Assembly: GCF_000381825.1 (NCBI RefSeq)
Contig: NZ_KB907130.1
Coordinates: 1 to 64,000, forward strand
Source of the DNA: Thioalkalivibrio sp. ALJT
GTDB taxonomy: Bacteria; Pseudomonadota; Gammaproteobacteria; Ectothiorhodospirales; Ectothiorhodospiraceae
Direction: 5' to 3'
DNA: 64,000 nucleotides
A program made the translations under genes and the position numbers. A model generated the notes under the pieces. That model made no database searches, was not told the DNA's origin, and saw only the letters and a list, made by a program, of their open reading frames with translations. Position 1 is the first letter of the stretch. Each line of letters starts with the position of its first letter. Below are positions 15,574-25,613 of this stretch, piece after piece.

Positions 15574-16644
15574 GTGAATCATCTGACACGTGTTATCCGT
15601 CGTCCTCATCTGTTCGCGAGCCTTTTGCTCGTGTGTCTGGCATGGGCGCTTGTGGTGCCCCCCGGGCTGGCGGATGCGGGGGCCGGGCCTGATGAAGGGC
15701 TGGTCTTCGACGACACGCCGCGGGCGATCGGCCTGCATACGCCGGACTGGTTCGAGCTGAGCTTTCTGGATCTTCGCGATGACCTGGAAGATGCCGTGGA
15801 GCAGGGCAAGATGGGTCTGGCGGTCTACTTCGGTATGGATGACTGCCCCTATTGCGAGGCGTTGTTTGATCAGAATTTTGCCCACGATGACATTCGAGAG
15901 TATCTGGCGGCGCATTTCAACGTCGTCGCGATCGATGCCCTGGGGACGCGCGAGGTCACCGACCTTGACGGCGAGACCTGGCTCGAACGGCGTTACGCGG
16001 CCGAACAGCGGCTCAACTTCACGCCTTCCATTGCCTTCTATGACGAGACGGGCGAGCGCATTCACCAGATGCGGGGCTACTACCCGCCATATCGTTTCCG
16101 CGCGCTGCTGGAGTACGTGATTGATCGACACGACCGGGAGGGCAGTTTCCGCGAGTATCTGGAACGGGCCGATCCGCCACCAAAATTCGATCTCGACGAT
16201 ATCAACGAACGCGATTTCTTCGTGCCGCAGCCATATGCGCTGGATCGCAGTCGGATCCCCGCAGATCGCCCGCTGGTGGTGTTCTTCGAACGTGAGGCCT
16301 GCCATGCCTGCGACATCCTGCATTCCGAGCCCCTGCAGCAGGACGAGGTGCTGGAGCGGATCGCGCTGATGGACGCCGTGCAACTGGACGCCGACGACGC
16401 CGACACGCCGGTGCTGACCCCGGATGGCAGGCGCACGAATCCGAAAGAGTGGGCAGCGATGCTGGATGTGCACTGGGCGCCGTCCCTGATCTTCTTCGAC
16501 GAGCGGGGGGAGGAGATCATCCGCATCGACTCTGTCGTGCACCTGAATCGACTGCGCAACGTGATGGACTATGTGCTGACCCGAGGCTACGAGGAGTATC
16601 CGACCTTCGAGCGCTGGCGGGCGCAGCAACCGCCACGTCCCTGA
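15574..16644 (+). CDS. Secreted protein with two thioredoxin-like domains
   Basis: The 356-residue precursor has an N-terminal signal sequence or anchor (about residues 10-34). Domain 1 (about 65-195) carries the redox pair CPYC in FGMDDCPYCEALF, followed by the cis-Pro region LNFTPSIAFYDETG. Domain 2 (about 220-345) carries CHAC in EREACHACDILH and WAPSLIFFDERG. Both resemble SoxW/DsbC-like periplasmic thioredoxins, which reduce or shuffle disulfides. Two such domains in tandem with different CxxC pairs are uncommon. The partner protein is unknown. It lies 24 bp after serS, and a small membrane-protein gene follows. Confidence 0.8.
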   Translation: MNHLTRVIRRPHLFASLLLVCLAWALVVPPGLADAGAGPDEGLVFDDTPRAIGLHTPDWFELSFLDLRDDLEDAVEQGKMGLAVYFGMDDCPYCEALFDQNFAHDDIREYLAAHFNVVAIDALGTREVTDLDGETWLERRYAAEQRLNFTPSIAFYDETGERIHQMRGYYPPYRFRALLEYVIDRHDREGSFREYLERADPPPKFDLDDINERDFFVPQPYALDRSRIPADRPLVVFFEREACHACDILHSEPLQQDEVLERIALMDAVQLDADDADTPVLTPDGRRTNPKEWAAMLDVHWAPSLIFFDERGEEIIRIDSVVHLNRLRNVMDYVLTRGYEEYPTFERWRAQQPPRP

Positions 16645-17906: not shown

Positions 17907-18241
17907 CAGGCGTCGTCGCCCATCTCGCTGTCGATATCCTGCCCGGCCACCCAGCCGTGCTCGCGCGCACGTGCGATCGCCTCGGCGTGGATGCGCTCGT
18001 GGCGTTCACGCAGGTCCGGCGGCAGGTTGCTGATGCGCAGGTCGTATTTGTCCCATTCGGCGTTGACCTGGTCGTGGAGTTGCTGGATGCGGGCGACCTC
18101 CCAGCCCTCGCAGGTTTCGGTCTCGGGCAGGATGCCGAAAACCCAGGCATCGCGGATGAAATTGCCGATGGGGGTCATGCCGCCGTACATGTCGTTGTAG
18201 ATGCCGACATAGATGCGGTTGGAGCGATTGGGTGCGTTCAT
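17906..18241 (-). CDS. Conserved hypothetical protein
   Basis: This 111-residue soluble protein starts MNAPNRSNRIYVGIYNDMYG. It is rich in charged and aromatic residues, with an amphipathic C-terminal helix ending in an acidic tail. I do not recognise a family. The ATG at 18241 was chosen because the longer frame runs back through the divergent Rieske-like gene. It overlaps the DUF423 start by one base, so it likely heads a short operon of itself, DUF423 and perhaps cyaY. Confidence 0.65.
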   Translation of the reverse strand: MNAPNRSNRIYVGIYNDMYGGMTPIGNFIRDAWVFGILPETETCEGWEVARIQQLHDQVNAEWDKYDLRISNLPPDLRERHERIHAEAIARAREHGWVAGQDIDSEMGDDA

Positions 18242-18307
18242 GACGCATAGTGTAGGCTCGCGTCCTTGCCAGGCAAAGCGATTTCTGACACTAGGAAGAC
18301 AGGTCAC

Positions 18308-18868
18308 TTGAACGCAATCCATGATTCGGCCGCGCGGGTGCGCATTCGCGGCCTGCTGAAACTGATGGTTCTGTTTGCTGGCGTCGTGCTGCTGGTGGTG
18401 GTGCTGAGCTACGCGCTGTCGCGTCCCGGCGATGTGCGGGGCGAGACCCTGCGGGTGGATCTGAGCGACATCGAACCGGGGACGGCCAAGCGCCTGAACT
18501 GGCGTAACCGACAAATCCTTGTGGTGCATCGCGATGCGGCATGGCAGCAGGCCCTGGCGGCGGATGCCGAGCTGGTCGATCCCGGTGCGCGCAGAGGGCA
18601 GCAGCCGGATGACCTGGATCTCCCCCTGCGCAGTTACCGTCCCGAGTGGCTGGTGGTTATCGGCGAAAGCACGGACCTGGGCTGCGAGCTGGAGCTGGTG
18701 CATCCGGATGCAGCCGAGGACTGGAGTGGTGGCTTCTTGGACCGCTGTCGTGGCGGGCGCTACGACGGTGCCGGGCGGGTGTATGCAGGCCAGGATGCCC
18801 GCCGTAACCTGCCGATACCGCAATATCGCCTTACCGATCCCGACACATTGATCCTGGGCGGGGACTGA
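18308..18868 (+). CDS. Membrane-anchored Rieske-like protein lacking cluster ligands
   Basis: This 186-residue protein has one N-terminal membrane helix (about 15-38), as in the Rieske subunit of bc1 complexes. The C-terminal half follows the Rieske pattern but with key changes. Box 1 reads STDLGC (121-126) where CTHLGC is expected, and box 2 reads DRCRGGRYD (145-153) where CPCHGSxYD is expected. The four Fe-S ligands (Cys, His, Cys, His) are thus Ser, Asp, Asp and Arg. The two disulfide cysteines (126, 147) remain, as does the downstream GRVYAGQDARRNLPIPQYRL. It probably keeps the fold without a 2Fe-2S cluster. Start: TTG with AGGAAG upstream. No cytochrome b or c1 gene is nearby. Confidence 0.7.
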   Translation: MNAIHDSAARVRIRGLLKLMVLFAGVVLLVVVLSYALSRPGDVRGETLRVDLSDIEPGTAKRLNWRNRQILVVHRDAAWQQALAADAELVDPGARRGQQPDDLDLPLRSYRPEWLVVIGESTDLGCELELVHPDAAEDWSGGFLDRCRGGRYDGAGRVYAGQDARRNLPIPQYRLTDPDTLILGGD

Positions 18869-24335: not shown

Positions 24336-25613
24336 ATGCCACGAGTAGCGAAAGAACTCACAGACCTTGCGGTGAAGCGACTGGGACCGAAGCCCGGCCA
24401 GCGCCTCCCCGTGAGCTATCCGGTCGGGGGCGTCTCCGGCCTCAGTCTCCAAGTCACCCCGGCGGGCGGTAAGTCTTGGCTGTTGCGGTACACGGTCCCG
24501 GGACCGCCCGGAAGCAAGCAGAAGCGCCGCGAAGTCGGCTTGGGCGGCTACCCTACCGTGACGCTCAAGCAGGCCCGAGAGAAGGCCCGGGAGCTGCGCG
24601 AGCAACTGGCCCGAGGGACCGACCCCGTTGAGCAGCGCAAAGCCCAGCGGAGCGCGCTTGCCGCTGAGCAGGCCCGGGCGATTACCTTTGAGCAGGCGGC
24701 CTCGCAGTACATCGAAGCGAAGGGAGGCGAGTGGAAGAACGCGAAGCACCGCCAGCAGTGGGAAAATACGCTCAAGACATACGCCTTCCCGGAGCTGGGG
24801 ACCCTTCGCATCAGCGACATCGACACGCCCCACATTTTGGCCGTCCTCGAACCGATCTGGACCACCAAGACCGAAACCGCGACCCGAGTACGTCAGCGGA
24901 TGGAGGTCATTCTTGATTGGGCGACCGCAAGGAAGTACCGCGAGGGGGAGAACCCGGCCCGCTGGAAAGGCCACCTCGATACGATGTTGGCGAAGCCGAC
25001 CAAGATCAAACCGACGAAGAACCACCCCGCGCTTCCGTACCCGATGGCCGCCGACTTCATGGCCGACCTTCGGGACCGGGAAGCCCTAGCCGCCCGGGCG
25101 CTGGAGTTCGGTATCTTGACCGCTGCCCGCTCCGGGGAGGTTCGCGAGGCGTCCTGGGCGGAGTTCGACCTTGAGGGCAAAGTCTGGACGGTGCCCGCTG
25201 AGCGGATGAAGGCCGGTAAGGAACACCGGGTGCCGCTGAGCGAGGCCGCTGTTCAACTGCTCCGGGACCTCCCCCGGCTCAAGGACAATGATCTGGTGTT
25301 CCCGGCTCCGCGCGGCGGGGTCATGTCGGACCAAGCCATGAAGGCCGTTATCAAGCGGATGCACGACGCCAAAGTGAAGGCCCGGGGCAAAGGGTATCTC
25401 GACCCGAAGCAGGACAAGATCATCACCCCGCATGGCTTCCGCTCGACCTTCCGCGACTGGGCCGCAGAGGCGACCGACTACGCCAACGAAGTCGTGGAAA
25501 TGGCGCTGGCTCATACGATCAAGAACAAGGCTGAAGCCGCCTACCGCCGGGGCGATCTGTTCGAGAAGCGTCAGGGACTTATGGCCGATTGGGCGGCCTA
25601 TTGCGAGGGCTGA
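24336..25613 (+). CDS. Tyrosine recombinase, P4-type integrase
   Basis: This 425-residue integrase has an N-terminal DUF4102 arm-binding domain (LTDLAVKRLGPKPGQRLP), a SAM-like core-binding domain (about 100-200) and a catalytic domain. Catalytic residues are visible: Arg in ARSGEVREASW, HGFR in TPHGFRSTFRDW, a later His in ALAHTIKNKAEAAYRR and the Tyr in that segment. P4-type integrases insert islands at tRNA 3' ends, agreeing with the tRNA-Ser attachment sites. It lies at the left end, reading inward, 11 kb from the intact tRNA. Start is ATG at 24336. Confidence 0.95.
   Translation: MPRVAKELTDLAVKRLGPKPGQRLPVSYPVGGVSGLSLQVTPAGGKSWLLRYTVPGPPGSKQKRREVGLGGYPTVTLKQAREKARELREQLARGTDPVEQRKAQRSALAAEQARAITFEQAASQYIEAKGGEWKNAKHRQQWENTLKTYAFPELGTLRISDIDTPHILAVLEPIWTTKTETATRVRQRMEVILDWATARKYREGENPARWKGHLDTMLAKPTKIKPTKNHPALPYPMAADFMADLRDREALAARALEFGILTAARSGEVREASWAEFDLEGKVWTVPAERMKAGKEHRVPLSEAAVQLLRDLPRLKDNDLVFPAPRGGVMSDQAMKAVIKRMHDAKVKARGKGYLDPKQDKIITPHGFRSTFRDWAAEATDYANEVVEMALAHTIKNKAEAAYRRGDLFEKRQGLMADWAAYCEG

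Follow-up and report, generated by a model that had tools for sequence, protein, structure and literature searches.

The gene at positions 18308–18868 of the window, i.e., of the whole 64,000-nucleotide stretch of Thioalkalivibrio sp. ALJT DNA that was analysed (NZ_KB907130.1, positions 1 to 64,000), very probably encodes a membrane-anchored Rieske fold devoid of an iron-sulfur cluster. Rieske proteins are textbook electron carriers; this paralogue is probably an ancient, redox-dead relative of the Rieske protein of cytochrome bc1. On balance, we prefer to regard it as a periplasmic binding module that is anchored in the membrane and holds no cluster; the leading candidate partner is bc1 or its assembly.

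Gene Features and Homology

The gene, its parts and its neighbour are located in the window as follows:

18308–18868, forward strand: gene of 186 codons plus stop for the cluster-free Rieske paralogue, from a TTG start codon to a TGA stop codon; orthologues are found in the same synteny
18293–18298, forward strand: likely ribosome-binding site AGGAAG, 9 nt 5′ of the TTG, read from the sequence
18314–18418, forward strand: N-terminal membrane helix, modelled as residues 3–37, rich in Leu and Val; Arg10, Arg14 and Lys18 are conserved
18443–18865, forward strand: periplasmic Rieske head, residues about 46–186, from the AlphaFold model and structural superposition
18668–18685, forward strand: Box I, S121-T-D123-L-G-C126 (canonical CTHLGC); two ligands lost, disulfide Cys126 kept
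18740–18751, forward strand: Box II, D145-R-C147-R148 (canonical CxCH); two ligands lost, disulfide Cys147 kept
17909–18241, reverse strand: divergent neighbour of about 110 aa, of no known family, listed as a neighbour with no functional link implied

The open reading frame lies at the coordinates given in the initial annotation; it has a TTG start, a TGA stop (18866–18868) and a length of 186 aa. Neither a sigma-70-like promoter nor a terminator was seen at the gene. The protein is matched by TIGR01416 as a bc1-type Rieske homologue (E-value 4e-25), and the score of 88.8 bits is below the curated TIGR01416 cut-off of 97.4 bits, which was used as the threshold for membership in the PetA equivalog. 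The best sequence match in the PDB is the bc1 Rieske chain 8smr_C (E-value 1.4e-28). The Pfam search returned no match, and no family other than TIGR01416 was matched in Pfam and NCBIfam together. With no Pfam match and a sub-threshold TIGR01416 score, annotation may miss the paralogue or name it a bc1 iron-sulfur subunit. A canonical petA gene with all ligands, followed by the genes of cytochromes b and c1, is located elsewhere in the genome, on a different contig.

Ligand Positions and Disulfide Cysteines

None of the four cluster ligands (Cys-X-His ... Cys-X-X-His) is present in the window protein. In the alignment with canonical copies, Ser121, Asp123, Asp145 and Arg148 fall exactly on the Cys, His, Cys and His ligands, and Cys126 and Cys147 fall exactly on the two disulfide cysteines, in full agreement with the initial reading of these residues. 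The homologues do not have normal ligands either. Across 31 diverse ligand-less relatives, Cys or His occupies 0 of 122 ligand cells (2 further cells are gaps), and the disulfide cells are Cys in 62 of 62, both cysteines being present in every member. The expectation that the pattern would be conserved across species was thus borne out for the loss of ligands and for the cysteine pair (31/31), whereas the exact Ser/Asp/Asp/Arg set is a genus-level state. Other lineages vary, and the sets encountered are SDDR, GDDR, GADR, ADDR, GEDR, GGEG, GTDG, DADA, AEER, EREE, DDET and SYDS, with two gapped.

Of the 31 ligand-less members, 14 have Gly at position 121, and positions 123 and 148 are also occupied by Gly, Ala, Thr, Ser or Val. 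Because of this variation, the alignment makes the binding of a cluster very unlikely. It also weighs against a [2Fe-2S] cluster or a single metal still bound via the Ser, Asp, Asp and Arg residues, an explanation to which we give a very low probability, even though Ser, Asp and Arg do occur as unusual ligands elsewhere among iron-sulfur proteins and residue 145 is acidic in all 31 members (26 D, 5 E). The same explanation may draw on the ability of canonical PetA to hold zinc in the site (PMC10492824).

The invariance of both cysteines (31/31) is also what would be expected of a thiol-disulfide redox protein, in which Cys126–Cys147 would operate as a periplasmic switch. However, the cysteines are equally invariant in the canonical copies, in which they have a structural function; no CxxC motif is present, and a thioredoxin-like gene lies nearby in two examined lineages only. 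Such a switch is therefore highly improbable.

The residues at the two former histidine positions, 123 and 148, are D/R in 19 of the 31 members, E/R in two and R/E in one. Their charges co-vary (Fisher p 0.0009, shared descent ignored), with a mutual information that ranks 13th among 15,400 column pairs; on the tree, the co-variation comprises three independent pairs, too few for significance. This co-variation is suggestive of a putative Asp123–Arg148 salt bridge, which would replace the two His–Fe bonds where the cluster was.

Conserved residues specific to the ligand-less class are Arg14, Lys18, Asp145, Arg148, Gln162 and Arg166. The paralogue keeps the proteobacterial bc1-type insertion and the core residues Asp91, Pro100 and Arg108, and has lost the hinge specific to bc1. 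From family to family, the ligand-less members differ in their tip loops, the part that docks on cytochrome b in bc1. The proline-loop feature, initially described as kept, is not fully so: the loop proline, present in all 28 canonical copies, is replaced by Asp163 in the window protein and occurs in only 11 of the 31 relatives. At alignment position 152, after box II, 22 of the 28 canonical copies from Gammaproteobacteria have Phe and 29 of the 31 ligand-less members have Tyr; Tyr is also the residue seen here in the bc1 Rieske proteins whose structures are known.

Predicted Structure and Membrane Anchor

The AlphaFold2 model of the window protein, for which the input alignment consisted of ligand-less sequences alone, has a mean pLDDT of 89.7 and features the helix 3–37 and a Rieske head. 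The modelled head superposes on Thermochromatium tepidum PetA 7yr9_A with a Z-score of 22.2 and an rmsd of 1.5 Å over 140 residues, at 39% identity. The protein is thus predicted to possess a Rieske head fold with an N-terminal membrane anchor, in line with the one-helix anchor and Rieske fold proposed at the outset, and the prediction did not point to any fold other than Rieske. The structure 7yr9 represents cluster-free, zinc-containing T. tepidum PetA (PMC10492824). Since the best structural match is itself cluster-free, a Rieske head can fold without the cluster.

The Tat-type, Gly-rich anchor of canonical proteins has given way to a very hydrophobic anchor in the paralogue. The mean hydropathy of the anchor is 2.43 in ligand-less versus 1.80 in canonical proteins, the fraction of Gly, Ala, Ser and Thr is 0.28 versus 0.56, and the RRx[hydrophobic]2 motif is present in 7 of 31 versus 26 of 28 sequences. 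The motif is absent from the anchor of the window protein, which does not qualify as a Tat-type signal anchor. The Tat system exports folded, cofactor-loaded proteins, and the loss of Tat features therefore agrees with the loss of the cluster. That these features are mostly gone is a further point against a cluster held by unusual ligands.

Distribution, Phylogeny and Selection

Almost all of the genomes from the genus, and most of those from the family, have an orthologue. The relative found in Thioalkalivibrio thiocyanoxidans ARh2 is 70% identical to the window protein. Within the order, the gene occurs in 40 of 47 genomes, and most of the remainder are incomplete assemblies. The dN/dS values for 11 pairs of ligand-less orthologues range from 0.07 to 0.34, and these comparisons indicate that the paralogue is under long purifying selection. 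The recurrence of the pattern throughout the order, the low dN/dS values and the reading frame free of stops leave a recent pseudogene or a sequencing error with a negligible probability. The contrast between ligand and disulfide cells and the dN/dS range likewise uphold the initial argument that random decay would not spare the structural cysteines alone; taken with the predicted Rieske head, the invariant cysteines and the cross-species pattern, they support a cofactor-free Rieske fold maintained by selection.

The class-wide search combined a profile search with a diagnostic DNA pattern in 369 gammaproteobacterial genomes. At no more than one mismatch, the pattern detects 52 of 53 known members and none of 30 canonical genes. 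The ligand-less family was found in 21 of the 369 sampled genomes, distributed over 13 families; one of these carriers (G033) was detected by the profile only. The pattern matches L122, L128, L138, L142 and L145 were taken as chance. In a sample of 398 genomes of the phylum, which covers few carrier lineages, the diagnostic pattern, searched with 0 mismatches allowed, was found only in the genome of origin, a result that denotes rarity, not absence. The viral scan revealed no relative of the paralogue.

In a tree from which the ligand columns were masked out, one side of a branch with a support of 98/97 is made up of the ligand-less sequences. Since they share this side, a single old duplication followed by the loss of ligands fits the tree, and a single origin is the favoured interpretation of the sequences. 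It falls short of proof because three ligand-less members are placed near the canonical side, on long branches.

Gene Neighbourhood

In six families the paralogue gene adjoins rsmJ, a position consistent with vertical descent. The neighbouring genes in the 13 families (rsmJ, yajQ, DUF423, cyaY, sohB, ycgL, serB, dnaQ, mltD, mutM and gltX, several of them named by eye) are housekeeping genes with no functional theme. The neighbour at 17909–18241 encodes a conserved protein with the motif Y.GI.ND..GGMT..G....DAW.F...PET..C.GW and no Pfam match. It is present in 112 of the 369 class genomes, mostly without the Rieske paralogue; it usually adjoins the paralogue in the family to which the window belongs and is unlinked elsewhere. 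It was considered as a functional partner and rejected, since it does not track the paralogue across the 369 genomes.

Other genes of the vicinity were noted as well. The gene at 15574–16644 (forward strand) of the window contains two thioredoxin-like stretches, and the same gene is found near the Rieske paralogue in another family (L107:155–1213). The gene at 24336–25613 (forward strand) reads by eye like a tyrosine-recombinase integrase, and a mobile element may begin here.

One relative has a different architecture. The protein encoded at L149:5182–6354 (forward strand), and also that of L123, has ankyrin repeats at the C-terminus in addition to a ligand-less Rieske domain and a likely signal peptide. 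The ankyrin-repeat fusion in this relative fits a binding role.

Relation to the bc1 Complex and Proposed Role

The genome of origin contains one cytochrome b and an intact petABC operon. The paralogue gene lies outside this operon and is not encoded with cytochromes b and c1. The canonical CTHxGC Rieske box was found in all 21 carrier genomes; this co-occurrence is weak evidence for a link to bc1, because a Rieske match is present in any case in 290 of the 369 class genomes and the carriers share descent. Since every genome in which the gene was found also has a canonical Rieske protein, bc1 is the leading named candidate partner, although the bc1 complex or one of its assembly intermediates as the actual partner should be seen as tentative and somewhat unlikely.

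A more specific form of this link is a decoy or placeholder subunit, with the paralogue replacing PetA in dimers of bc1 or in intermediates of its assembly, thereby producing inactive half-dimers or a tuned bc1 output. The bc1-type insertion and the residues Asp91, Pro100 and Arg108 are kept, the canonical box accompanies the paralogue in each of the carriers, and the single cytochrome b of its own genome means that no second bc1 is available to it. Nevertheless, the paralogue has lost both the canonical hinge and its Tat-type anchor, and the docking tip is variable; we consider such a substitution unlikely. The variable tip loops and the lost hinge also count against a simple docking of the head at the Qo site.

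It is a credible, if still doubtful, alternative that the partner is unrelated to bc1 and that the paralogue is a free-standing periplasmic binding or scaffold protein with an inherited Rieske fold. The gene stands alone in several unrelated contexts, the new anchor carries the conserved Arg10, Arg14 and Lys18, the head has acquired Arg148 and Arg166, and one secreted version is fused to ankyrin repeats. However, the paralogue never occurs without a canonical Rieske protein in the sample.

In the preferred reading, that of a cluster-free binding module with bc1 as the leading candidate, the [2Fe-2S] cluster would be gone, and the loops that once clasped it would be held by the Cys126–Cys147 disulfide and by charged residues, namely Asp123–Arg148, perhaps joined by Asp145 and Arg166. 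With no cofactor to be loaded in the cytoplasm, Tat export would no longer be needed; the anchor would have become a strongly hydrophobic signal anchor of the Sec/SRP type, leaving the head in the periplasm. Instead of carrying electrons, the head may then serve as a rigid module for protein binding, which is a weaker step than the preceding ones. A non-redox binding role of the ligand-less head is reasonably probable, and a candidate new role in binding or signalling at the membrane, as suggested by the initial annotation, is plausible. The retention of the fold and of the disulfide cysteines after the cofactor was shed, with the cluster-bearing sister intact, in 13 families indicates that the fold has been recruited for something else. 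If the paralogue binds bc1, it would add a new layer of control to a central respiratory enzyme.

Comparison with Known Systems

A literature search for ligand-less Rieske paralogues, which mostly left out subscription journals, returned nothing for Gammaproteobacteria. A paralogous ligand-less family kept beside an intact bc1 across 13 gammaproteobacterial families appears to be new. That such a previously undescribed ancient family acts as a bc1 regulator, assembly factor or placeholder in Gammaproteobacteria is improbable at present.

NirD, for example that of Escherichia coli, is a Rieske-type protein that can lack ligand residues, which is its likeness to the paralogue. Unlike the latter, NirD is the small subunit of the NADH-dependent nitrite reductase; it is soluble and has neither a bc1-type head nor a membrane anchor. 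No NirD chains were found among the sequence or fold matches of the window protein. In Bacillus bataviensis NirD, two ligand residues are substituted (PMC3475470).

A PetA that lacks ligands and keeps the disulfide is already known. The “deranged” PetA of Acidocella has three to four cluster ligands missing and both disulfide cysteines kept (Degli Esposti 2023, PMC10715153), and the non-functional bc1 of Acidocella may have been kept because it has a structural function, the stabilisation of Complex I, according to Degli Esposti and colleagues (PMC10715153). The likeness, drawn by description and not by sequence, lies in the combination of lost ligands and kept cysteines. Acidocella is, however, an alphaproteobacterium (Acetobacteraceae) in which bc1 itself is described as deranged, whereas here an extra paralogue accompanies an intact bc1 in Gammaproteobacteria.

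Canonical PetA (TIGR01416; 8smr_C, 7yr9_A) shares with the paralogue the head fold, one N-terminal helix, the disulfide cysteines and the bc1-type insertion, at 32–39% identity. In contrast to PetA, the paralogue is without the four ligands, has the hinge and the Tat-type anchor replaced, is encoded outside petABC and, in the window copy, has lost the loop proline. The “immature” Zn-containing PetA of T. tepidum (7yr9, PMC10492824), the best structural match, resembles it in having a head folded without the cluster, but keeps its ligand residues, with ZnCl2 on two ligand cysteines, where the paralogue has no ligands.
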